Position numbers and translations under genes: made by a program
Assembly (NCBI GenBank): GCA_026646335.1
Contig: JAPKFY010000010.1
Coordinates: forward strand, 1-44,729
From: Aequorivita sp.
GTDB lineage: Bacteria > Bacteroidota > Bacteroidia > Flavobacteriales > Flavobacteriaceae
Length of the DNA stretch: 44,729 nt
Direction of reading: 5' to 3'
Shown: positions 29,913-41,526 of the stretch, piece after piece
How the letters are laid out: every line of letters begins with the position of its first letter
Position numbering within the stretch: position 1 is the first letter of the stretch
Notes under the pieces: model-generated
What the model saw: the letters and a program-made list of their open reading frames with translations, nothing else
Told to the model about the DNA's origin: nothing
Database searches by the model: none

Positions 29913-30007
29913 GCCAATTGGAGAGTTTTATTGGTTTAACACAATAAAAATACAAAAAATATGAAAGCCAAAAGTATTCTTTACTTTTACAAAAAACATA
30001 CTATAAT

Positions 30008-30721
30008 ATGAAAATACCTTATGCTGCTCTATTTTTACTTTTAGTGCTTATAGGCTGTAACAACAGCCAAAAATCTTCTGAAAGTTCTACTTCCAATGAA
30101 TTGATGAAAGAGAAAGATTCCATTGAAAATTTAGACATTAGGCATCGAATTGCAAACGCCAATGGCTTTCAAAATTGGAAAGACGTTTCTGAAATAGCCT
30201 TTACCTTCAATGTGGACCGTGGCGAAAACCATTTTGACCGATCGTGGATCTGGAAACCTAAAACCGGAGATGTGTCAATGATGTCTGCAAAAGACACCTT
30301 AAATTACAACCGTGCACAAATGGACAGCCTGATTATGAAAACCGATGCCGCCTTTATAAATGACAAATATTGGCTACTAGCTCCTTTTCAACTTGTTTGG
30401 GATGATGGGATCACTTTCTCTGAAAAAGAGAATGCCGTGGCGCCCATTTCCAAAGACACTTTGGGCCGTCTTACCATTGTTTACAAGAACGAAGGAGGTT
30501 ACACGCCTGGCGATGCTTATGATTTTTTCTATGATAAAGATTTTAAAATAAAGGAATGGAACTATAGACAAGGAAATTCCCTTGAACCGTCAATGAGCAC
30601 CACTTGGGAAGCTTATGAGGACTTCAACGGTATTGAAATTGCAAAAACACACAAAGACAGCACTGGCAATTTCAAGTTGTATTTCACCAATATTTCAGTG
30701 AAAAAAGAAACAGACAATTAA
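30008..30721 (+). CDS. Lipoprotein of unknown function
   Basis: A 237-residue protein with lipobox LIGC (Cys17) and a Ser/Asn-rich linker. The mature part alternates polar strands with many aromatic residues (ENHFDRSWIWKPKTGDVSM, YWLLAPFQLVWDDG, TIVYKNEGGYTPGDAYDFFYDKDF), suggesting a beta-rich domain similar in feel to outer-membrane lipoprotein carriers, but I cannot assign a family. TACTTTTA (29982-29989) may be its promoter. It lies 52 nt upstream of the kynurenine genes, which have their own -7 box, so functional linkage is not implied. Confidence 0.75.
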   Translation: MKIPYAALFLLLVLIGCNNSQKSSESSTSNELMKEKDSIENLDIRHRIANANGFQNWKDVSEIAFTFNVDRGENHFDRSWIWKPKTGDVSMMSAKDTLNYNRAQMDSLIMKTDAAFINDKYWLLAPFQLVWDDGITFSEKENAVAPISKDTLGRLTIVYKNEGGYTPGDAYDFFYDKDFKIKEWNYRQGNSLEPSMSTTWEAYEDFNGIEIAKTHKDSTGNFKLYFTNISVKKETDN

Positions 30722-30773: not shown

Positions 30774-32036
30774 ATGTTCCAAAACTCTTTAGAATACGCC
30801 AAAAAACAAGATGCCGAAGATGTTTTGGCTTGTTTCAGAAATAAATTCCACATTCCAAAAAATGCTTCGGGCGAAGCGCTTATCTATCTCTGTGGCAACT
30901 CACTCGGCTTACAACCCAAAATCACTTCAGAATATATAAAAGAAGAGTTGACAGATTGGGCAAACCTTGGCGTTGAAGGCCATGTGGAAGGCAAGCATCC
31001 GTGGCTTCCGTACCACGAATTTCTTACGGAAAACATGGCAAAAATCGTTGGCGCAAAACCTTCGGAAGTAGTTGTGATGAATACGCTTACAACCAATCTT
31101 CATTTAATGATGGTTTCTTTTTTTCAACCCACAAAAACCAAATATAAAATTGTGGTTGAAAGTGACGCCTTCCCTTCAGATAAATACGCAGTTGAAAGCC
31201 AATTGAAATTTCACGGCTTCAATCCAAAAGATGGGTTGATTCTTTGGAAACCTAGAAAAGGCGAAGAACTTTGCCGTTTTGAGGATTTGGAAGAAATTAT
31301 GAAAACCCACGGCAACGAAATCGCTTTGCTGATGATTGGCAGTACCAATTATTACACAGGGCAATCCTTTCCGTTGAAAAAAATTACTGAATTAGGTCAT
31401 AAATACAACTGTATGGTTGGTTTCGATTTGGCACACGGCGCGGGAAACATTCAGCCAAATCTTCATGAAACAGGTGCTGATTTCGCCGTTTGGTGTACTT
31501 ATAAATATCTCAATAGCGGCCCAGGAAGTTTGGGAGGTTGCTTTGTACATGAGCGCCATGCCAACAATGAAAACCTCAACCGTTTTGCAGGCTGGTGGGG
31601 CCATAACAAAAAAACGCGTTTCAATATGCGCCACGAGTTTGATGCTTTGCCTGGCGCCGAAGGTTGGCAACTCAGCAATCCGCCAATTTTGTCAATGGCA
31701 GCAATTCGCGCTTCCTTAGATACTTTTGCCGAAGCAGGTTTTGAAAACCTTCGGAAGAAATCTGAAAAGCTAACCGGCTATTTAGAATTTTTATTGGATG
31801 AAATGAAAAACGAATCCATCAACGTAATCACGCCCAGAAATCCCGAAGAACGCGGCTGCCAACTTTCAATTCAAGTTAAAAACGCCGATAAAAGTTTGCA
31901 CACAAAACTAACCGAAGCTGGCGCAATAAGCGATTGGCGCGAGCCCGACGTAATCCGAGTTGCTCCTGCTCCACTTTACAATAGTTTTGAGGAAGTTTAC
32001 CGCTTTTCGGAAAAGCTAAAAAAGGTCTTGGAATAG
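30774..32036 (+). CDS. kynU: Kynureninase
   Basis: PLP enzyme cleaving kynurenine or 3-hydroxykynurenine to anthranilate or 3-hydroxyanthranilate plus alanine. Its 420 residues carry the family start LIYLCGNSLGLQPK, the VEGHVEGKHPWLPYHE segment, ESDAFPSDKYAVESQ, GFDLAHGAGN (Asp to the pyridine nitrogen) and the PLP lysine in CTYKYLNSGPGSLGG. It opens the operon and is followed by a family A palindrome and kmo, which implies the 3-hydroxykynurenine route. Confidence 0.96.
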   Translation: MFQNSLEYAKKQDAEDVLACFRNKFHIPKNASGEALIYLCGNSLGLQPKITSEYIKEELTDWANLGVEGHVEGKHPWLPYHEFLTENMAKIVGAKPSEVVVMNTLTTNLHLMMVSFFQPTKTKYKIVVESDAFPSDKYAVESQLKFHGFNPKDGLILWKPRKGEELCRFEDLEEIMKTHGNEIALLMIGSTNYYTGQSFPLKKITELGHKYNCMVGFDLAHGAGNIQPNLHETGADFAVWCTYKYLNSGPGSLGGCFVHERHANNENLNRFAGWWGHNKKTRFNMRHEFDALPGAEGWQLSNPPILSMAAIRASLDTFAEAGFENLRKKSEKLTGYLEFLLDEMKNESINVITPRNPEERGCQLSIQVKNADKSLHTKLTEAGAISDWREPDVIRVAPAPLYNSFEEVYRFSEKLKKVLE

Positions 32037-32063
32037 ACCTAACAGGTTTTTAAAACCTGTTAG
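32037..32063 (+). repeat. Palindrome family A, copy 2 (kynU-kmo)
   Basis: Core TAACAGGTTT and AAACCTGTTA arms, starting one base after the kynU stop. No T-tract follows, so it should not be a strong terminator; it may stabilise the upstream message or lower distal expression. Confidence 0.85.
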
Positions 32064-32090
32064 ATCTGCAATAAATAATAAAAATAATTA

Positions 32091-33503
32091 ATGAAAAATA
32101 TATTAATCATCGGTGCTGGCCTATGCGGAAGTCTTCTCGCTTTGCGAATGGCACAGCGCGGCTATCAAGTAACCTTGGTTGAAAAACGCCCCGATTTGCG
32201 CAAAGTAACCCAAGATGCCGGACGTTCCATTAACTTGGCCTTGAGCGATCGCGGGTTGCGCGGTTTAAGGCTTGCGGGCGTTGAGGAAGAAGCCAAAAAA
32301 CTCTGTATCCCAATGAACGGCCGGATGATTCACGACAAAGCGGGAAATACTTTTTTGAGTCCTTATAGCGGCAGAAAAGATGAATACATAAACTCTATTT
32401 CACGTCCCGGACTTAATATGCTGTTATTGGATGAAGCAGAAAAAATGCCTAACGTCAATATAATTTTCAACTACGCTTGCGAAGAAGTTGATTTGGAAAA
32501 TGCTTCAGCTACTTTTAGGGATTTCAATTCAAAAAAAGAAACAACAATCACTGCAGATGTAATTTTCGGAACCGACGGCGCAGGCTCTGCCGTTCGCAAA
32601 AGTATGTTCGACAACCATAATTTTCTCTTCAGTTTTTCGCAGCAATGGCTCAGCCACGGCTATAAAGAACTGGAAATCCCAGCTGCAAAAGACAATGGCT
32701 ATAGAACCTACAAAAACGCTTTGCACATTTGGCCGCGAGGCGAAGATATGCTGATTGCACTGCCAAATCTGGACGGAAGTTTTACGGTAACCCTATTTCT
32801 TCCGTACGAAAACAGCGATTACTGTTTCGCGAATTTGACAACCCCGGAAATGGTCCACGAATATTTCAACAAGGAATATCCCGATGTGGTGGAAATGATT
32901 CCAAACCTTTCCGAAGAGTTTTTCGGAAATCCAATAGGGCCACTCGGCACCGTGAAATGCTCTCCGTGGAACAGTTTCGGAAAAGTGCTTTTAATGGGCG
33001 ATGCCGCACACGCAATCGTTCCATTTTACGGACAGGGAATGAATGCTTCCTTTGAAGATGTAGTGGTTTTTGATGAATTTCTTGAGAAATATATCCCCTC
33101 CCGGCCTCCCCAAGGCGGAGGAGTTGATTGGGAAGCTATTTTTAAAGAGTACGAGACGCTTCGGAAAAAAGATACGGATGCCATTGCAGATTTGGCTGTG
33201 GACAATTTCCACGAGATGAAGGAACACACCGCGATGGAAATCTTTCAGAAAAAACGAAAACTGGAAACTGCTTTCGAAGCCGAATTTCCCAAAGATTATT
33301 ACAGCAAATATTCTTTGGTTACCTTTAAGGAATCAATCCCCTATTCCGAAGCGATGAAACGCGGAAGAGCACAGGACAAAGCGATTTTGAATCTTATAGC
33401 CGACGGAAAAATCACCGAGAAAATGTCTTTGAAAGAAAAACTGGAACTGGTAAAAAAACATACCGAAGCCATTCTTCACGATGATGAAGTGGCGTTTGGG
33501 TGA
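32091..33503 (+). CDS. kmo: Kynurenine 3-monooxygenase
   Basis: FAD monooxygenase hydroxylating kynurenine to 3-hydroxykynurenine. Visible are the FAD Rossmann motif IIGAGLCGSLLALRMAQRG, the DG motif region FGTDGAGSAVRKSM and the second FAD motif LMGDAAHAIVPFYGQGMNASFED. The C-terminus (EKLELVKKHTEAIL) is soluble, so it lacks the membrane anchor of the mammalian enzyme. Length is 470 residues, slightly long because IPSRPPQGGGVD, just after FLEKY, is encoded by a GC-rich palindrome inside the gene. Its stop codon falls in a REP-like element. Confidence 0.95.
   Translation: MKNILIIGAGLCGSLLALRMAQRGYQVTLVEKRPDLRKVTQDAGRSINLALSDRGLRGLRLAGVEEEAKKLCIPMNGRMIHDKAGNTFLSPYSGRKDEYINSISRPGLNMLLLDEAEKMPNVNIIFNYACEEVDLENASATFRDFNSKKETTITADVIFGTDGAGSAVRKSMFDNHNFLFSFSQQWLSHGYKELEIPAAKDNGYRTYKNALHIWPRGEDMLIALPNLDGSFTVTLFLPYENSDYCFANLTTPEMVHEYFNKEYPDVVEMIPNLSEEFFGNPIGPLGTVKCSPWNSFGKVLLMGDAAHAIVPFYGQGMNASFEDVVVFDEFLEKYIPSRPPQGGGVDWEAIFKEYETLRKKDTDAIADLAVDNFHEMKEHTAMEIFQKKRKLETAFEAEFPKDYYSKYSLVTFKESIPYSEAMKRGRAQDKAILNLIADGKITEKMSLKEKLELVKKHTEAILHDDEVAFG
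33095..33124 (+). repeat. GC-rich palindrome inside kmo
   Basis: CTCCCGGCCT pairs with AGGCGGAG across a short C-rich loop. The element is far richer in G+C than the flanking kmo sequence and stays in frame, encoding about 10 residues rich in Pro and Gly. It resembles the CCTCCCC/GGGGAGG intergenic repeats I recall from Bacteroidota. Confidence 0.65.
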
Positions 33504-33545
33504 CTTCGACTTCACTCAGCCACCAATCGGCCATTGAGCGGAGCC
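33500..33545. repeat. REP-like element, family B, copy at the kmo-ridA junction
   Basis: GTGACTTCGACTTCACTCAG (33500-33519) matches the arm CTTCGACT-x-CGCTCAG seen at 35559-35580. A degenerate partner, TTGAGCGGAG, follows at 33534-33543. The kmo TGA stop is part of the element. Confidence 0.65.
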
Positions 33546-33572
33546 AATATTATATTAAAAAAACATAAGTTT

Positions 33573-34007
33573 ATGAGCAACAAAAGCAGATTAGTAGAAG
33601 GAAAAGCAACACCACGTGGCGCATATCCACACATTAAACGCGCTGGCGATTTCCTGTTTGTGAGCGGCACAAGTTCACGTTTGCCGGACAATACCTTTGC
33701 GGGCGTTAATAAAATTGACGAAATGGGCACTATGTATTTCGATATTAAGGAACAAACCCGTGCCGTACTGGAAAACATAAAAGATTACCTAGCCACTGAA
33801 GGTGCCACGATGGCCGATGTGGTTGACATAACCAGCTTTTTGGTAAACATGAACGACTTTGCGGGTTATAATCAGGTGTATTCGGAATATTTTAACAAAG
33901 AAACGGGACCCGCGAGAACTACGGTGGCTGTGCATCAATTGCCGCATCCGCATTTGATTGTTGAAATTAAGGCAATGGCTTATTGGCCAGTGAGCAGCAA
34001 ACAATAA
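33573..34007 (+). CDS. RidA-family 2-aminomuconate deaminase
   Basis: A 144-residue RidA/YjgF-type protein. The [20 protein letters not shown] start and [26 protein letters not shown] end are typical, with the conserved Arg in the latter. In Pseudomonas nitrobenzoate and kynurenine pathways such proteins (AmnD, NbaF) deaminate 2-aminomuconate, and the neighbouring dehydrogenase supports that assignment here. A general enamine/imine deaminase role is the alternative. ATG 33573 ([10 protein letters not shown]) is preferred to a TTG at 33534 lying in the REP-like repeat. Confidence 0.85.
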
Positions 34008-34013
34008 TCTAAA

Positions 34014-34046
34014 AAACCTAACAGGTTTTTGAAACCTGTTAGGTTT
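34014..34046 (+). repeat. Palindrome family A, copy 3 (ridA-ALDH)
   Basis: The most perfect copy: two 15-nt arms (34014-34028 and 34032-34046) around a 3-nt loop. It begins 7 nt after the deaminase stop and ends 17 nt before the dehydrogenase start. Confidence 0.88.
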
Positions 34047-34063
34047 GAAAAATATTTTTTAAT

Positions 34064-35506
34064 TTGAAAATCCTAAACTACATAAACGGCGAATACGTTG
34101 AACCGCTTTCCAAAAAATGGTTGGACAATTACAATCCTTCCAATGGCGAAGTGTATTCGCAGATTGCAGCTTCAAATGCCGAGGATATTGAAACTGCATA
34201 CCAAGCCGCGAAGAAAGCTTTCCCAAAATGGAGCCATACCACCATTGAAGAACGCAGCAAGTTAATGCTAAGAATTGCGGATTTAATAGAGGAAAAACTA
34301 GTCGATTTGGCAGAAGCCGAGGCAAAGGACAACGGGAAACCATTGAGTTTGGCTTTGGCAGTTGATATTCCGAGAGCTTCTGCAAACTTTCGGTTTTTCG
34401 GAAATGCAATTACCCAATTTGCCAGCGAAGCCCACGAAAGTATAGGTTTGAACACTATTAATTTTACACTTCGCCAACCTCTTGGCGTTGTTGGCTGTAT
34501 TTCGCCTTGGAATCTTCCGCTGTATTTATTCACTTGGAAAATCGCGCCAGCAATCGCAGCCGGAAATACGGTGGTTGCCAAACCGAGCGAAGTCACGCCT
34601 ATGACCGCTTTCCTTCTCGGTAAAATCTGTACAGAAGCAGGTTTGCCAAAAGGCGTCTTAAACATTGTTCACGGCACGGGACCTTCTGCGGGACAAGCCA
34701 TTGTTGAACATAAAAATATAAAAGCAATTTCATTTACCGGCGGAACTAAAACAGGCGAGCACATTGCCCGGACAGCAGCGCCTATGTTCAAAAAACTGTC
34801 GCTGGAACTGGGCGGGAAAAATCCAAACCTCATCTTCGCAGATTGCGATTACGAAAAAATGCTGGAAGTAACCGTTCGTTCTTCTTTTTCAAACCAAGGC
34901 CAAATCTGTCTTTGTGGAAGTAGGGTTTTTGTTGAAAAACCGATTTTTGAAAAATTTAAAAAAGATTTCATTGAAAAAGTAAAACAACTAAAAGTTGGCA
35001 ATCCTTTTGACGCTGAAACTAATATGGGAGCTTTGGTTTCAAAACCGCATCTTGAAAAAGTAGAGTCGTACATTAAAATCGCCGAAAAAGAAGGCGGAAA
35101 AATCCTTTGTGGCGGAAATCGGGTCGTTGTAAAAGATTTCGAAAACGGCTATTATTTAGAACCCACGGTCATTGAAGTTTTTGACGACCAGTGCCGCGTA
35201 AACCAAGAAGAAATTTTCGGTCCCGTAGTAACAATTATGCCCTTTGAAACGGAAGAGGAAGTTCTAAAAATGGCGAATTCCGTAAAATATGGACTCTCCG
35301 CTACCCTTTGGACTTCAGATTTAAACCGAACGATGCGCATTTCAAAAGAAATTGAAGCTGGAATTGTTTGGGTAAATACCTGGCTAAACCGTGATTTGCG
35401 CACTCCTTTTGGCGGAATGAAAGACAGCGGCGTAGGCCGTGAAGGCGGTTTTGATGCGCTTCGGTTTTTTACGGAGGCTAAGAATGTGTGTATTAAATAT
35501 GAATAA
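34064..35506 (+). CDS. 2-aminomuconate-semialdehyde dehydrogenase
   Basis: An NAD-dependent aldehyde dehydrogenase of 480 residues. Marks are GCISPWNLPLYLFTWKIAPA (coenzyme site), KPSEVTP, FTGGTKTGE, the general base Glu in LELGGKNPN and the catalytic Cys in NQGQICLCGSR. The sequence resembles AmnC/NbaE and 2-hydroxymuconic semialdehyde dehydrogenases; the operon decides for 2-aminomuconate semialdehyde. There is no ATG near the front, and TTG 34064 gives KILNYINGEYVEP, a normal family N-terminus, so a TTG start is likely and may limit expression. Confidence 0.9.
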   Translation: MKILNYINGEYVEPLSKKWLDNYNPSNGEVYSQIAASNAEDIETAYQAAKKAFPKWSHTTIEERSKLMLRIADLIEEKLVDLAEAEAKDNGKPLSLALAVDIPRASANFRFFGNAITQFASEAHESIGLNTINFTLRQPLGVVGCISPWNLPLYLFTWKIAPAIAAGNTVVAKPSEVTPMTAFLLGKICTEAGLPKGVLNIVHGTGPSAGQAIVEHKNIKAISFTGGTKTGEHIARTAAPMFKKLSLELGGKNPNLIFADCDYEKMLEVTVRSSFSNQGQICLCGSRVFVEKPIFEKFKKDFIEKVKQLKVGNPFDAETNMGALVSKPHLEKVESYIKIAEKEGGKILCGGNRVVVKDFENGYYLEPTVIEVFDDQCRVNQEEIFGPVVTIMPFETEEEVLKMANSVKYGLSATLWTSDLNRTMRISKEIEAGIVWVNTWLNRDLRTPFGGMKDSGVGREGGFDALRFFTEAKNVCIKYE

Positions 35507-35509
35507 GAT

Positions 35510-35580
35510 GTCAGGCTGAGCGCAGTCGAAGCCCGATTGAAATCTTAACCTAAAAGCCCTTCGACTGCGCTCAGGGTGAC
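35510..35580. repeat. REP-like element, family B, complete inverted pair
   Basis: Arms at 35510-35531 and 35559-35580 are inverted copies matching at 20 of 22 positions, with the core CTGAGCGCAGTCGAAG. They flank a 27-nt AT-rich middle and fill the 86-bp gap between the dehydrogenase and SDR genes. Confidence 0.85.
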
Positions 35581-35592
35581 AATAAAAATATT

Positions 35593-36378
35593 ATGAATTT
35601 AGATTTAAAAGATAAAAACGCGTTGGTCTGTGGAAGTACTGCAGGAATAGGAAGAGCGATCGCTATTCAATTGGCAAAACTTGGAGCAACTGTAACTTTG
35701 GTTGCCCGCGATGAAGCAAAACTGAAAGAAACATTGATAGAGTTGGCGCACGACAAAGGTCAAAAACACAACTATTTTATAGCAGATTTTACAAATCCAC
35801 AACAGTTGAAAGACAAGGTGGAAGTTGCGGTTTCCAACAAAATCTTTCATATTTTGGTAAATAATACTGGGGGTCCAAAAGGCGGCCCCATATTTTCCGC
35901 ATCAACCGATGAGTTTGAGAAAGCCTTTTCAATGCACATAATCTGCAACCAGATTTTGGTGCAGGCGCTCGTCCCCGGCATGAAGGAGGCCGATTATGGC
36001 AGAATTATCAATATCATTTCCACTTCTGTAAAACAGCCCATTGATGGACTTGGGGTGAGCAATACCATTCGCGGCGCGGTTGCAAGTTGGAGTAAGACTT
36101 TAGCCAATGAACTGGGCCAATTCGGAATAACGGTTAACAACGTTCTGCCAGGTTTTACAGCTACTGATAGGTTGGAAGACATTGTGGGCAACGCTGCAAA
36201 ACGCATGAATAACACTGAAAAGGAAGCCAGCGATTTTATGAAAAGTCTTGTTCCTGCAAGGCGTTTCGCCCAACCGGGTGAGATTGCCAATGCCGTTGCA
36301 TTTTTGGCCAGTGAAGCTGCCAGCTACATAAATGGGATAAACCTTCCTGTTGATGGGGGAAGGACCAAAAGTTTGTAA
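35593..36378 (+). CDS. BKR-like SDR without the usual Tyr-Lys pair
   Basis: A 261-residue short-chain dehydrogenase/reductase fold. The nucleotide motif is CGSTAGIGRAIA rather than TGxxxGIG, the NNAG motif reads NNTGG, and where Y-x3-K is expected it has S156-N-T-I-R160. The ending GINLPVDGGRTKSL is normal. This matches a known divergent SDR group described as lacking the standard tetrad. Because the gene is embedded in the kynurenine operon it may act on a pathway intermediate; one candidate is reduction of 2-aminomuconate, but that is inference. The small membrane protein gene follows after 11 nt. Confidence 0.85.
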   Translation: MNLDLKDKNALVCGSTAGIGRAIAIQLAKLGATVTLVARDEAKLKETLIELAHDKGQKHNYFIADFTNPQQLKDKVEVAVSNKIFHILVNNTGGPKGGPIFSASTDEFEKAFSMHIICNQILVQALVPGMKEADYGRIINIISTSVKQPIDGLGVSNTIRGAVASWSKTLANELGQFGITVNNVLPGFTATDRLEDIVGNAAKRMNNTEKEASDFMKSLVPARRFAQPGEIANAVAFLASEAASYINGINLPVDGGRTKSL

Positions 36379-36389
36379 CTTTAGCAGAT

Positions 36390-36983
36390 ATGAGACGGTC
36401 TTTTTTTCAAAAACTCGCTAAGATTTTTACAGAGCTCCTCATTGTTTTTATAGGGGTTTATCTAGCGTTTCAGTTAAATAATTATAAAGAAGAGGCCGAA
36501 AATCAACGGATTCGAAATAACTATTACAAAGTTCTTTCAAATGAATTTGAATATACCGCGCAAAATATCAAGCAAGTAGCGGACCAGTTGGAAGCATTTG
36601 CATCCCGCCTTGACGCAAAGGAAAAACCTCAACTTTCAAAACTTCAAAGGCTGGATTTGAGTGACAATATGTATGTTTTGAAATCCGCATTCAACTCCGG
36701 CTATTTTGAAAATATCAATCAGAAGTACATAAATAACATTGGCAGGGGCGCTAACCATCTTAATAAAATAAGTACATTACTCACAAACTATAACAACAAA
36801 ATTCAAAATGTACTAATTGCAAATAATTTTGATAATTCCATATTTTATAATGAAGATGGTACTTTAAAAAGTAATTATTATTGGGTGAAAGAAGAGCTTG
36901 ATTATATAATAAATTATTTAAAAATGTTGGAAAAAGTGATTGTTGAAGAAGCTATTCCAGACACTAAATCATTGATAGAATGA
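36390..36983 (+). CDS. Small single-TM protein in the kynurenine operon
   Basis: A 197-residue protein with a basic N-terminus, one hydrophobic helix (about 13-31: ELLIVFIGVYLAFQLNNY) and a helical, Asn/Lys-rich C-terminal domain. The membrane start resembles the DUF6090-type flavobacterial proteins (LVVIGILIALQINNW), but the rest I do not recognise. It is not a 3-hydroxyanthranilate dioxygenase: there is no cupin pattern. Its TGA overlaps the ATG of the decarboxylase (ATGA), so the two are translationally coupled. TAACTTTA (36376-36383), one base off the -7 consensus, lies just upstream and could give an internal promoter. Confidence 0.75.
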   Translation: MRRSFFQKLAKIFTELLIVFIGVYLAFQLNNYKEEAENQRIRNNYYKVLSNEFEYTAQNIKQVADQLEAFASRLDAKEKPQLSKLQRLDLSDNMYVLKSAFNSGYFENINQKYINNIGRGANHLNKISTLLTNYNNKIQNVLIANNFDNSIFYNEDGTLKSNYYWVKEELDYIINYLKMLEKVIVEEAIPDTKSLIE

Positions 36984-38062
36984 AACGAAAACTCCGCATC
37001 AACGGCCATTCACACCTACTTCCCTATCCAGAGGAAATTCCGCAGTTTATGCAGGACAAAGGGATTTTTTGGGTAGATAAAGACCGAAAATTTATGCTCC
37101 AAAAAGATTGGAGCCGTCCGGTTACCGATTCCAGTTTCTTTTTAAATGAAAAGCTGGAATGGATGGAGCGTTTCAAAATAGACCACGCAGTGGTCTTAAA
37201 CCTTTCGCAACTCTACGGCAACGGACTTCGGGTAGAAGAAATGAAACAGGCACTTCGTTTTCAGAATGATTTTAACGCAAAAGTACAGCGTGAACATCCT
37301 TCAAAATTTACCTGTGGTTTTGTGGTACATCCCGGTTTTGTGCGTGGAGCGCTATGGGAAATGGAGCGCTGTGTAGAAGAGCTCGGGATGCAGTTATTGT
37401 GTTTGCCAACCCACTATATGGATACAATCGGTACGTGGCGCTGCATTTTTGACGAAGAAAACGAACCCATTTTTGAACTTGCCTCAAAATATAATCTTGC
37501 AGTTGAAATCCATCCCTACGATGGCGAAAAATTCATAAAGCTTGAAAACACAGCTTGGCGTTTTCACTTAATTTGGATGCTTGCGCAATGTGCGGATGCC
37601 TATCACTTCTTGACCTTAAACGGTTATGCAGATAAATATCCAAACATGCGAACTTGCTTTGCCCACGGCGGGCAGTTGGCGCAAATAAATTTGGGAAGGC
37701 GAATACAAGGATTCGATGGCCGCCCCGATCTTTTTGAAGGGAAAACACATCCACGAAAATCTGTTGGACACAAAAATATTTTCTTCGATACGCTCTTGCA
37801 CGATACCGGCGGTTTGGAATTATTGGTAAAAAATCAAGGAAGCAAACAAGTATTGATGGGCTTGGACGACCCATATCCGTTAGGAGAAATGGAAAGCGCG
37901 GTACAATCTTCCTACCCCGGAAAAATTTTAGACTTGGCTGTTGAGCAAAAGATTATAACGTCTGAACAGTGCGATGACATATGGGATAAAAATGTAATTC
38001 AATGGCTTTGTGGCGATGATGAAACGGCCAAAGAAAAATTAGTTAAAAGAATACTTGGCTAA
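36980..38062 (+). CDS. ACMS decarboxylase (amidohydrolase family)
   Basis: 2-amino-3-carboxymuconate-6-semialdehyde decarboxylase, which diverts ACMS away from quinolinate to aminomuconate semialdehyde. Over 360 residues the zinc ligands are visible: His10 and His12 in NGHSHLLP, a His in AVEIHPYD, His in CFAHGGQL and Asp in LMGLDDPYPLGE. The overall pattern follows human ACMSD and NbaD, with a slightly longer chain. It starts inside the stop of the small membrane gene and is followed 2 nt later by a 7-TM protein. Its substrate-forming partner, 3-hydroxyanthranilate dioxygenase, is not in the window. Confidence 0.9.
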   Translation: MKRKLRINGHSHLLPYPEEIPQFMQDKGIFWVDKDRKFMLQKDWSRPVTDSSFFLNEKLEWMERFKIDHAVVLNLSQLYGNGLRVEEMKQALRFQNDFNAKVQREHPSKFTCGFVVHPGFVRGALWEMERCVEELGMQLLCLPTHYMDTIGTWRCIFDEENEPIFELASKYNLAVEIHPYDGEKFIKLENTAWRFHLIWMLAQCADAYHFLTLNGYADKYPNMRTCFAHGGQLAQINLGRRIQGFDGRPDLFEGKTHPRKSVGHKNIFFDTLLHDTGGLELLVKNQGSKQVLMGLDDPYPLGEMESAVQSSYPGKILDLAVEQKIITSEQCDDIWDKNVIQWLCGDDETAKEKLVKRILG

Positions 38063-38064
38063 AA

Positions 38065-39201
38065 ATGACAGAAGTAGCTAAATTCTACATTCTTTCGCAC
38101 ATCTGCATCGCCTTTCTCGGTGGGGTTTTGCTGCTCGCGCTTTGGTACAACATTCGCGCAAGGTTTCGTCAACTTTTGGAAGAGGACGATTCGCAAAAAA
38201 GAGTGGACAAAGGACTTTTGTATTTGAGTCTGGCAATGTTTGTTTGGGTGCTTTCTGGCTGCTGGATTTTCGGTGGAACAATCTTCAATTTTACCGAAAC
38301 ACAAGGGTATCAACTAGCAGTAAACCTTTTTTCAATTGTCAATAACATGTTTTTGCTGTTGGCGCTCTTCTACTTTTATTACGCTCCCGGATTTATTTAT
38401 CACAACAAAAAGAACATCAAGAAAATAATTATTGCAATTGTTTTAACTTCTATAATCACCTTCGTGCTTCCTTTTATTTTAGGTGAAGCAAATGTTTATA
38501 GAAATATAAGAATTAGTGGAATTCCAGATTTATTGCTTTCCGCTTTTCTTTGTTATTTATTAGGCGTCTCCTTCTACAGAACCTTTGTATATAGAGGTTT
38601 AAAAATCATCGCCTTTATTTCGGTTTTGGTGATTCTGCTGATTTTTGTCTCGCAGATTTCCGAAGTATTCTTAACCTTCGGAAACGATTTCAGCAATAAT
38701 TTCATCAAAATTATCGCTAAAACATCGTTGATTTCCATCTTTTTGGTTTTGGCAACAACGTGGGTAATTAAACTTGCAAGCACGCCAAAACCTAATGAAA
38801 TTACCATTCACTTTTTGGATTGGGGCTTGGTGAAATTGAACATTCCCACCAAAAATATTTACGACCAAACTATTGATTTTGGCTCCAAAACCACGCAGTA
38901 TAAAAACTTGCTGAAATTCGCCATAAGAAGAAAATATAACGAAGGCGATTTGCAAACCATTCCAGTAAACCTTGGGGGTGAAATAAAAAATCAAACCTAC
39001 CTAACACGAATCATTGAAAATATTAACGATATTCTTCAACTTGACGATACACAAAAACTGGATCGCCGCGATCTTTTCACCTTTATTGGTGAAAGCAAAT
39101 ACCGTTTACGGATTGTTCCCAATAACATTACAATCGATAAAACCCTGCTTGAAGAATTCTCTGAAAGTGCAGAAAACAAAGACTACAAAGTGTTTTTGTA
39201 A
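38065..39201 (+). CDS. 7-TM membrane protein with cytoplasmic C-terminal domain, unknown function
   Basis: A 378-residue protein that I do not recognise. Seven hydrophobic helices are visible at about 8-28, 50-72, 83-107, 118-138, 150-170, 175-200 and 213-232, followed by a soluble domain of about 145 residues with no kinase, GGDEF or DNA-binding motif that I can see. The layout resembles a sensor or receptor with an unusual output domain. It starts 2 nt after the decarboxylase stop, so it is the last gene of the kynurenine operon, and may sense or transport a pathway compound; this is inference from position only. Confidence 0.7.
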   Translation: MTEVAKFYILSHICIAFLGGVLLLALWYNIRARFRQLLEEDDSQKRVDKGLLYLSLAMFVWVLSGCWIFGGTIFNFTETQGYQLAVNLFSIVNNMFLLLALFYFYYAPGFIYHNKKNIKKIIIAIVLTSIITFVLPFILGEANVYRNIRISGIPDLLLSAFLCYLLGVSFYRTFVYRGLKIIAFISVLVILLIFVSQISEVFLTFGNDFSNNFIKIIAKTSLISIFLVLATTWVIKLASTPKPNEITIHFLDWGLVKLNIPTKNIYDQTIDFGSKTTQYKNLLKFAIRRKYNEGDLQTIPVNLGGEIKNQTYLTRIIENINDILQLDDTQKLDRRDLFTFIGESKYRLRIVPNNITIDKTLLEEFSESAENKDYKVFL

Positions 39202-39317: not shown

Positions 39318-40874
39318 ATGGGCAATGTAATTTCCGAGGCTGAACAACCTCAACTTTTTGGCCACCCAAAAGGACTTCTTTATCTATTTTTTGCAGAAAT
39401 GTGGGAACGATTTTCCTTCTATGGAATGCGCGCCTTACTCGTTCTTTACATGACAAAACATTTGTTGTATGATGACGATATGGCTTTTGGTGTCTATGCA
39501 GCTTATATGTCTTTGGTTTATGTAACTCCAATGATTGGAGGAATTTTAGCCGACAAAATTCTGGGCTATCGAAAAGCGATAATTCTCGGTGGAATTTTGA
39601 TGGTGTTCGGCCACTTTTTCCTTTCCATTGAAATGCCGATTTTCTTTTATGGTTCGCTCGGATTGATAATTGTGGGCAATGGATTTTTCAAACCAAATAT
39701 TTCGTCTTTCGTAGGCGAACTTTACGAACAGGGAGATGCCCGGCGCGATTCTGGATTCACTATTTTTTACCTTGGAATAAATTTGGGCGCCGCTATTGCA
39801 CCACTTTTATGCGCTTGGTTTGCCATTACATACGGGTGGCATTATGGGTTTGTTTTGGCTGGAATTGGAATGGTTACGGGCCTTTTGGTTTTCAGAAGTG
39901 GTATTAAAAATAATGTCTTTGGCAATAAAGGACTCGTACCTGACCAACAAGTTTACAATCAAAAATGGTTTGGTTTAAACAGAGGAAAATTGATTGTTTT
40001 GGCTTCTATCACTTCCGTTGGAATTTTTGCAGCTCTTGTCCGCTTTAATGAATTTGAAGGATATTTAGTGTGGATTGTTTCTGCATTTTTGATTTTTTAT
40101 ATAGGTTACATTATTACAACTGTCAGTTCAAAAGAAAAGAAGCGGTTAATTGTGGCAGTTTACTTTACCATTTTATACACGCTTTTTGCAGCAATCTTTG
40201 AGCAGGCAGGAAGTTCGTTGACACTATTTGCAGATAGAAATGTAAATTTAGTGGGAATGGATGCCGCTGGAACAAATAGTATAAACGCTGGCTTCATCAT
40301 CCTATTCGCCATTCCGTTTTCAATGTTTTGGACTTTTTTAAGTCGAAAAAAGGCAAATCCAAATTCTGCAGTAAAGTTCGGGCTTGGGCTTTTATTTCTC
40401 GGATTGGGTTTTATTGTATTTGCGCTTTCCGCGCACAGTGTGGATGATTTTGCGAAAACATCAATGAGTTATTTGGTTATTGCTTATCTGGTTTTGACTG
40501 TCGGGGAATTGTTCCTCTCCCCCATCGGACTTTCAAAAATGACAGAGCTTTCGCCTTTAAAATACGTAGCTTTCATCATGGGCGTTTGGTTTTCGGCGAA
40601 TTTTTACGGACATTTTTTTGCAGGAAAAATTGCGAAACTTACTACAGTTTCGGAAAGTGGATCAAATATTTTTTCAGAAGGAATCTTCGGAACTATCACG
40701 GAATACCTAACTGGATTGACCCCGCAGATTGCTTCAGGGCAAAGCGATGGATTCCAACAATTGTTTTCCTATGTTTCTGTATATGCAAGTTTTGGGGTAA
40801 TTAGTGTGATTGTGGGTATATTTGCAATACTCATTTCGCCAATTATAAAAAAGATGATGGGCGGCATTCACTAA
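39318..40874 (+). CDS. POT/PTR2-family peptide MFS transporter
   Basis: A proton-coupled di/tripeptide importer of the major facilitator superfamily, 518 residues. The N-terminal EMWERFSFYGMRALLVLYM carries the family ExxERFxYY-like motif; GGILADKILGYRKAI and FIVGNGFFKPNISSFVGELY-type PTR2 signatures follow, and about 12-14 TM helices are evident. The usual FYxxINxG motif appears as FYLGINLG. A 116-bp spacer separates it from the 7-TM gene, so it is probably transcribed separately. Confidence 0.94.
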   Translation: MGNVISEAEQPQLFGHPKGLLYLFFAEMWERFSFYGMRALLVLYMTKHLLYDDDMAFGVYAAYMSLVYVTPMIGGILADKILGYRKAIILGGILMVFGHFFLSIEMPIFFYGSLGLIIVGNGFFKPNISSFVGELYEQGDARRDSGFTIFYLGINLGAAIAPLLCAWFAITYGWHYGFVLAGIGMVTGLLVFRSGIKNNVFGNKGLVPDQQVYNQKWFGLNRGKLIVLASITSVGIFAALVRFNEFEGYLVWIVSAFLIFYIGYIITTVSSKEKKRLIVAVYFTILYTLFAAIFEQAGSSLTLFADRNVNLVGMDAAGTNSINAGFIILFAIPFSMFWTFLSRKKANPNSAVKFGLGLLFLGLGFIVFALSAHSVDDFAKTSMSYLVIAYLVLTVGELFLSPIGLSKMTELSPLKYVAFIMGVWFSANFYGHFFAGKIAKLTTVSESGSNIFSEGIFGTITEYLTGLTPQIASGQSDGFQQLFSYVSVYASFGVISVIVGIFAILISPIIKKMMGGIH

Positions 40875-40884
40875 AAATTTCACA

Positions 40885-41526
40885 ATGGATTTTCTTTCTG
40901 AAAGATTAAACGATTACGTAGAAAAACATTCGCAACCTGAGCCAGAATTGCTTGCAAAGCTGAATCGTGAAACCTGGCAAAAAATGATTGCACCAAGAAT
41001 GTTGAGCGGACATTTGCAGGGCCGAGTTTTGAGTATGCTTTCAAAATTAATACAGCCGGGAAGTATTTTGGAAATTGGAACTTACACAGGGTATTCTGCC
41101 TTGTGTTTGGCCGAAGGAATGCAGCAAGACGGTGAGCTGCACACAATCGATATCAACGAGGAATTATTTGATTTTCAACGTAAATATTTTGACGCATCCC
41201 CTTTCGGAAAACAGGTTTTCCAGCATTTGGGGGATGCTTTGGAAATAATTCCGAAACTCGACAAAACCTTTGATTTGGTCTTTATTGATGCCGATAAAAA
41301 TAACTATCCCAACTACTTGGAATTAATTCTTCCAAAGCTGAAAAAAGGATCCGTTATTTTAAGCGACAATGTGCTTTGGAGCGGAAAAGTAGTTGAAGAA
41401 TTGAAAGATGATGATGAAGACACAAAAGCACTACTTCAGTATAATAAACTATTAAATGAGCATCCTAAACTTGAAACGGTAATTATGCCCATTCGGGATG
41501 GCTTGACCATAAGCAGGGTAAAATAG
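40885..41526 (+). CDS. O-methyltransferase (COMT-like, class I SAM)
   Basis: A 213-residue cation-dependent O-methyltransferase. The SAM motif is ILEIGTYTGYSALCLAEGM, followed by LHTIDINEELFDFQRKYF, DLVFIDADKNNYPNYLELILP and ILSDNVLWSGKV; the Asp of FIDADK and the DN of SDNVLW are the metal ligands in the family. The substrate is unknown (catechol-like compounds for relatives). It starts 10 nt after the POT transporter, suggesting co-transcription. Confidence 0.92.
   Translation: MDFLSERLNDYVEKHSQPEPELLAKLNRETWQKMIAPRMLSGHLQGRVLSMLSKLIQPGSILEIGTYTGYSALCLAEGMQQDGELHTIDINEELFDFQRKYFDASPFGKQVFQHLGDALEIIPKLDKTFDLVFIDADKNNYPNYLELILPKLKKGSVILSDNVLWSGKVVEELKDDDEDTKALLQYNKLLNEHPKLETVIMPIRDGLTISRVK

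Follow-up and report, generated by a model that had tools for sequence, protein, structure and literature searches.

We analysed a window of 44,729 nucleotides, which is one entire contig (JAPKFY010000010.1) of an Aequorivita sp. assembly (3.05 Mb, 163 contigs, 94.4% complete), and studied the eight-gene kynurenine operon that it carries on the + strand at 30774-39201. One of the eight genes encodes a short-chain dehydrogenase/reductase (SDR) lacking the usual tyrosine, which probably replaces the known bacterial ending of the pathway and directs the molecule onto an animal-type route. In the reading we favour, and regard as fairly likely, the RidA protein of the operon would make 4-oxalocrotonate and the SDR would reduce it to 2-oxoadipate, for breakdown through glutaryl-CoA. 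The reading draws on the gene content, an aldolase that was looked for and not found, the presence of glutaryl-CoA dehydrogenase (GCDH), the loss of Tyr and Lys from the SDR, and its distribution together with 2-aminomuconate-6-semialdehyde dehydrogenase (AMSDH). An earlier note on this DNA had described eight genes on one strand in about 8.4 kb; all eight are open reading frames at the coordinates below, and family scans agree with the naming of six of them, that of 2-amino-3-carboxymuconate semialdehyde (ACMS) decarboxylase (ACMSD) coming from operon context.

30774..32036, + strand: kynU, kynureninase, 420 aa (TIGR01814, 443 bits, above the cut-off of 246)
32091..33503, + strand: kmo, kynurenine 3-monooxygenase, 470 aa (FAD_binding_3; alongside kynU in relatives)
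33573..34007, + strand: ridA, relative of 2-aminomuconate deaminase (Ribonuc_L-PSP; PDB 6izh, E 1.6e-53)
34064..35506, + strand: AMSDH, 480 aa, TTG start (Aldedh; TIGR03216; operon context)
35593..36378, + strand: Tyr-less SDR, putative 4-oxalocrotonate / 2-aminomuconate C=C reductase, 261 aa (adh_short, adh_short_C2; S156/R160)
36390..36983, + strand: 197-aa protein with one hydrophobic segment (hydropathy scan; position held by 3-hydroxyanthranilate dioxygenase, HAO, in several relatives)
36980..38062, + strand: ACMSD, Amidohydro_2 protein (name from operon context)
38065..39201, + strand: 378-aa protein with seven hydrophobic segments (7-TM; hydropathy scan)

The gaps between these genes measure 2 to 86 bases, with one 4-base overlap, and the gene set is kept in relatives, so the operon is not a chance arrangement. 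The best NCBIfam match of kmo is VioC, below its cut-off, and that of AMSDH is TIGR03216 (2-hydroxymuconic semialdehyde dehydrogenase; 577 bits, below the cut-off of 693). We place the start of ridA at the ATG at 33573; the listed frame opens at a TTG at 33534, and our searches used the protein from 33570, one codon longer.

The route that we infer would begin with kmo, kynU, ACMSD and AMSDH which, with HAO supplied from another contig, would carry kynurenine to 2-aminomuconate. RidA would hydrolyse 2-aminomuconate in the manner of the amn/nba bacteria, releasing ammonia and leaving 4-oxalocrotonate (2-oxohex-3-enedioate). The SDR would then stand in for the decarboxylase-hydratase-aldolase ending, using NAD(P)H to reduce the conjugated C3=C4 bond, with the hydride going to C4, to give 2-oxoadipate, which would be oxidised to glutaryl-CoA and handed to GCDH.

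All gene searches were run on the same draw of 296 Bacteroidota genomes, that of the window included. Matches were obtained for the SDR in 56 genomes (E<=1e-60), RidA in 13 (E<=1e-25), HAO in 68, AMSDH in 43 (E<=1e-130) and GCDH in 221 (E<=1e-110). Six SDR matches were set aside as paralogues (G182, G130, G234, G210, G265 and G269), which share an LALSN motif and group apart on a 100/100 branch, leaving 50 orthologues in a split that rests on tree and motif. Orthologue and AMSDH occurred together in 39 genomes, the SDR alone in 11, AMSDH alone in 4 and neither in 242 (Fisher p 4.5e-34, ignoring shared descent), bearing out the co-occurrence that the earlier note had proposed to look for across Bacteroidota. 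With all 56 matches the same table reads 39/17/4/236, and among the 68 HAO-positive genomes, with orthologues, 39/2/3/24 (Fisher p 5.5e-13, again ignoring shared descent). The pairing was seen in 15 families; among the genomes listed, 8 of family f1 have both and 22 neither, and for family f8 the counts are 3 and 4. The SDR follows AMSDH, not HAO as such. A role in NAD biosynthesis or as a general kynurenine enzyme, such as a formamidase, was rejected on account of the 24 of 68 HAO-positive genomes that have neither SDR orthologue nor AMSDH, 15 of which belong to one genus (g2) of the window's family.

Gene neighbourhoods agreed with this distribution. In stretches of at most about 8 kb either side of the SDR, a kynurenine gene was found in 27 of 38 loci from AMSDH-positive genomes (28 of 39 with the window), in line with the earlier note's expectation that the SDR would sit mostly in kynurenine clusters; the figures were 3 of 11 for orthologues from AMSDH-negative genomes and 0 of 6 for paralogues. 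The genes met in the 38 loci were HAO (24), ACMSD (21), KynU (16), AMSDH (16), KMO (14) and RidA (12). We also examined named loci, the best 80 of at least 594 SDR matches and not an even sample, in stretches of at most 9 kb. A kynurenine gene was present in 62 of the 80 (AMSDH 52, ACMSD 49, KynU 44, RidA 43, KMO 43, HAO 42), and the aldolase in none within those stretches. The closest named relatives of the SDR, among the matches listed, are from Aequorivita (90-91%).

Sequence constraint on the SDR also varied with the pathway. Forty-nine columns are invariant in the 39 AMSDH-positive sequences, and eight of these are altered in some of the 11 AMSDH-negative orthologues, R257 in five and T189 in three. 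One or other of these two residues is altered in 8 of the 11, while both are kept in 39 of 39. Changes total 15 against a shuffle mean of 2.8, with none of 2000 random splits as high and one of the 2000 giving five changes in a single column; the columns were picked as invariant in AMSDH-positive genomes, and the test does not correct for relatedness, related sequences not being independent. With caution, we read this as a residue constraint tied to the pathway.

The SDR carries the glycine-rich cofactor motif CGSTAGIG at the expected position and the Rossmann fold of the classical SDR superfamily; its structure model has a pLDDT of 92.9 and a pTM of 0.91, and all 50 listed PDB matches are oxidoreductases of the SDR type. 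Its catalytic tetrad is His115-Ser143-Ser156-Arg160 instead of Asn-Ser-Tyr-Lys, with S156 in place of Tyr and R160 in place of Lys. S143, S156 and R160 are kept in 39/39 AMSDH-positive sequences and H115 in 34/39, and the clade bears the signature LGVSNTIR with Arg at 257. The earlier note had called this SDR atypical, and rightly: of 19 matched SDRs in the same genome we compared eight, finding YxxxK in 8/8 and Asn in 7/8, as against SxxxR and His in the operon protein.

In a profile search against the PDB the order was 5va8, AerF (6jh7), 5vps, 1o5i, 5idx, 2z1n and YwfH, followed by NADPH-sorbose reductase; AerF thus stands second of 417 matched sequences (E 8e-64) and YwfH/BacG seventh. Foldseek with the SDR model likewise put 5va8 and AerF on top (TM 0.91 and 0.93), with L-sorbose reductase 10th and YwfH 18th. 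We know of no studied function for 5va8, and by sequence and by model AerF and BacG/YwfH are the nearest functionally studied relatives of the SDR. BacG, from bacilysin synthesis, reduces a C=C bond, delivering hydride to C4 of a dienone-pyruvate, and both AerF and BacG act on 2-oxo acids. The 2-oxo-3-ene form of 4-oxalocrotonate would be a conjugated 2-oxo acid of the same kind, and its saturation would give 2-oxoadipate. C=C reduction is also named in the title of the paper on AerF (aeruginosin), and a review, in the part concerned, lists BacG as the reductase making an H4HPP-type precursor. These ene-reductases share with the SDR the closeness in fold and sequence and the loss of Tyr (Ser in AerF). 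They differ in that identity is only about 28-33% and their substrate is cyclic; in AerF, to which the residue comparison is confined, Gly and Asn stand at the positions of S143 and R160 of the SDR. In mint SDRs, according to the portion of the report consulted (PMC4988501), a Tyr/Glu exchange switches between ketone and C=C reduction, and by this analogy the loss of Tyr would be more in keeping with a C=C reductase than with an aldehyde reductase. On a Priestia aryabhattai plasmid (L224, 4111-7099) the genes on either side of a related Tyr-less SDR encode an FAA-hydrolase (fumarylacetoacetate hydrolase) protein and a dicarboxylate symporter, a hint that this SDR type may often act on 2-oxo or dicarboxylic acids.

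The RidA protein was informative as to the substrate. Its best PDB match is 6izh (E 1.6e-53, 183.9 bits, the next PDB sequence reaching 79.8 bits), and the similarity spans the full length and exceeds that to other RidA proteins. This match suggests that the window's RidA is more than a generic one, namely a relative of 2-aminomuconate deaminase. In the parts of its description available to us, 6izh is the enzyme of Pseudomonas AP-3, hydrolyses 2-aminomuconate to 4-oxalocrotonate, and lines its cleft with Ser35, Gly36, Glu88, Gln103, Arg117 and Lys135 (PMC6742747). Since ridA encodes a relative of this enzyme, 4-oxalocrotonate appears a likelier substrate for the SDR than 2-aminomuconate. The earlier note's proposal that the SDR, with or without RidA, could be a 2-aminomuconate reductase is therefore amended in its substrate; the genome tests we ran supported it. 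In each of the seven other genomes whose RidA match falls below E 1e-55, the SDR lies no more than 3 kb from it. A collection of 72,556 plasmid records gave 36 RidA matches at E<=1e-20, of which 30 have 60-80% identity. In three of the four plasmid clusters opened (Cupriavidus, Vibrio and Streptomyces), RidA has a dmpG aldolase, acetaldehyde dehydrogenase, HAO and an amidohydrolase in its neighbourhood; in the fourth, from Mycetohabitans, the stretch holds an AMSDH-like gene, RidA, HAO and an amidohydrolase, and neither the aldolase nor the acetaldehyde dehydrogenase.

We then considered the meta-cleavage ending, none of whose genes the earlier note had seen in the operon. Its aldolase was not found elsewhere in the genome either: TIGR03217 (4-hydroxy-2-oxovalerate aldolase) gave a single match of 41.5 bits, in a 1154-aa frame and against a cut-off of 286, in this assembly of 94.4% completeness. 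A 4-oxalocrotonate decarboxylase or 2-oxopentenoate hydratase of the expected size was not found in this genome, PF01557 having two matches there, in frames of 449 aa, which we take to be fumarylacetoacetase, and 210 aa, presumably a general FAA-hydrolase protein. The decarboxylase and hydratase of Burkholderia xenovorans are given as 254 and 269 aa in the part of the source used (PMC3790839). Across the sample, the aldolase scored above its cut-off in 0/39 genomes with both SDR and AMSDH, and in two of the four with AMSDH and no SDR orthologue (G128 and G058). In G128 the genes after RidA encode an FAA-hydrolase protein, acetaldehyde dehydrogenase and a DmpG-type aldolase, and the nearest SDR has 40% identity and lacks the LGVSNTIR signature. 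G058 has no HAO or KMO match and its locus resembles a catechol-type meta cluster, from which we judge it not to be a kynurenine case. GCDH, for which the earlier note had suggested a search, is present in the window's genome (best PDB match 2eba, E 5e-128; of ten listed PDB matches nine carry the name glutaryl-CoA dehydrogenase, in one case as putative, and the tenth that of acyl-CoA dehydrogenase) and in 39/39 genomes with SDR and AMSDH.

A number of findings weigh against our reading. Eleven of the 38 fetched loci of AMSDH-positive genomes showed no kynurenine gene near the SDR, and the SDR cut-off falls within a near-continuum of E values (the paralogues lie at 2.5e-65 to 1.1e-62, the weakest orthologue at 5.9e-63 and the strongest match rejected at 7.5e-59); the neglect of shared descent in the Fisher values belongs here too. 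Nine genomes have an SDR orthologue and no HAO, AMSDH or KMO match at the thresholds used, and two more (G275 and G283) have HAO, KMO and the SDR with no AMSDH at E<=1e-130; these are the 11 AMSDH-negative orthologues of the residue comparison. Three of the nine (L072 = G253, L074 = G126, L085 = G033) have kynU in the stretch. In these three loci the SDR adjoins kynU and a c38-cluster protein (FMN_bind_2 in L074). G126, G033 and G150 retain both R257 and T189, the first two also having kynU in the stretch. The nine genomes speak against an exclusive role in the pathway and suggest that the SDR may have another substrate. They are likewise what favours the reading of the SDR as a broad 2-oxo-enoate reductase, often but not only employed in kynurenine breakdown, which we consider improbable, given that variation at R257, T189 and six further columns is confined to AMSDH-negative genomes, as if the pathway held these columns fixed. 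In the SDR tree several pathway-less orthologues fall inside or beside AMSDH-positive groups, often at weakly supported forks, which makes it plausible that the pathway was lost and the SDR left behind.

Other points on the same side concern RidA and the ending. A RidA relative (>=45 bits) lies near the SDR in 12 of the 38 fetched loci and near AMSDH in five more (L111, L112, L245, L247 and L248), so that many genomes with AMSDH and SDR have none in the stretches examined. This would suit an alternative in which 2-aminomuconate, in the form of its 2-imino-3-ene tautomer, is the direct substrate of the SDR and RidA acts second, hydrolysing the resulting saturated 2-imine to give 2-oxoadipate. 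Of the readings considered, this one is closest to the wording of the earlier note and to the animal step as usually drawn. RidA proteins are enamine/imine deaminases, as the section seen of PMC6742747 has it, which also suits this order of events; the closeness of the window's RidA to the enzyme making 4-oxalocrotonate, and the 2-oxo acid substrates of AerF and BacG, tell against it, and we consider it unlikely.

With respect to the ending, only one of the three HAO-positive, AMSDH-positive genomes without the SDR has the aldolase and, since G058 lacks HAO and KMO, the complementarity of SDR and aldolase rests mainly on the 0/39. G085 and G293 have kmo, kynU, ACMSD, HAO, AMSDH and a RidA relative, with neither SDR orthologue nor aldolase; kynU, ACMSD, HAO, RidA and AMSDH stand together (L251/L134 in G085, L135 in G293), kmo being adjacent in G085 and on another contig in G293. 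Their gene content indicates that a third ending exists besides SDR and aldolase. It also lends something to the idea that the SDR serves another step of the branch, for instance reducing a semialdehyde (ACMS, or 2-aminomuconate semialdehyde, AMS) to limit quinolinate or picolinate, with the ending left to unrecognised genes, as do eight loci of family f24 with the SDR beside HAO and ACMSD and AMSDH not in the fetched stretch. We find this distinctly unlikely: the SDR does not track HAO alone, as the 24 of 68 HAO-positive genomes show, and its loss of Tyr fits C=C better than aldehyde reduction by the mint SDR analogy (PMC4988501, in part). Finally, the co-occurrence of GCDH was dropped as proof, its presence saying little when 221 of 296 genomes have it.

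HAO is not in the operon, and its sole match in the genome lies on a different contig (G000:C98:680-1135; L011, L141). This match (1.5e-49) scores like those of same-family genomes without AMSDH (about 1e-50 to 1e-54), unlike those with it (1e-57 to 1e-63), and HAO was likewise not seen in the operon in three Aequorivita loci (L144-L146). Several genomes of the same family have HAO between SDR and ACMSD (L056, L057, L058, L060 and L064), an interval that the 197-aa gene occupies in the window and that is too small for this gene in Aequorivita loci L144 and L145. Neither the 197-aa nor the 378-aa protein matched a Pfam or NCBIfam model at E 0.001; the latter lies 3' of ACMSD in 8/80 named loci. 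ACMSD identity is 77-89% in seven same-family SDR-AMSDH loci and at least 75% in 44/80 named loci. Between ridA and AMSDH (34014-34046) there is an inverted repeat of 15 pairs with a 3-base loop, terminator-like on the - strand, which could modulate how genes within the operon are expressed. Beyond the 3' end of the operon (39318-41526) come an oligopeptide symporter and an O-methyltransferase, the latter having a match in 36/80 named loci. A sigma-70 promoter scan gave 36 sites against 26.9 in shuffles, one of them (29980-30007) just before a lipoprotein-like open reading frame at 30008. The Bacteroidota-type promoter motif occurred 5 times in the whole window against 3.06 in shuffles, and no copy lay immediately before kynU.

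What becomes of 2-aminomuconate has long been a missing piece of tryptophan breakdown, and to our knowledge the animal reductase has not been assigned to a gene. The portion consulted of a 2023 review has ACMSD as the last gene identified until 2018, with ten steps missing beyond its product and AMSDH added since (PMC10143591). In the open-licence literature we found no gene assigned to the reductive step, and met the reductase by name in one review figure, which, in the part seen, calls the animal step 'oxalocrotonate reductase' (PMC12899273). On balance we lean towards the view that the SDR clade (LGVSNTIR, Arg257) would be the first gene-level assignment in any organism of the reduction of 2-aminomuconate or 4-oxalocrotonate to 2-oxoadipate, by a Tyr-less conjugate reductase, and would create a widespread bacterial counterpart to the animal kynurenine route in place of the meta-cleavage ending. 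Now that an SDR family has a clear candidate substrate, the next step can be tested directly and there is a lead for the animal enzyme, and Bacteroidota may by this means turn tryptophan carbon into glutaryl-CoA.

Three known systems can be set beside the operon. The Ascomycota 3-hydroxyanthranilate cluster has HAO, ACMSD, AMSDH and a recurrent RidA-family protein, with a syntenic SDR in some Aspergillus; its paper, in the parts available, does not decide between reduction to 2-oxoadipate and decarboxylation, nor does it give the SDR the reductive role (PMC7842363). With the amn/nba modified meta-cleavage pathways of Pseudomonas AP-3, P. fluorescens KU-7 and Burkholderia, the operon has AMSDH and the RidA-type 2-aminomuconate deaminase in common, but in place of decarboxylase, hydratase, aldolase and acetaldehyde dehydrogenase it has a reductase. 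With the animal kynurenine route it shares identical intermediates as far as 2-aminomuconate and, as we propose here, 2-oxoadipate and glutaryl-CoA beyond it.

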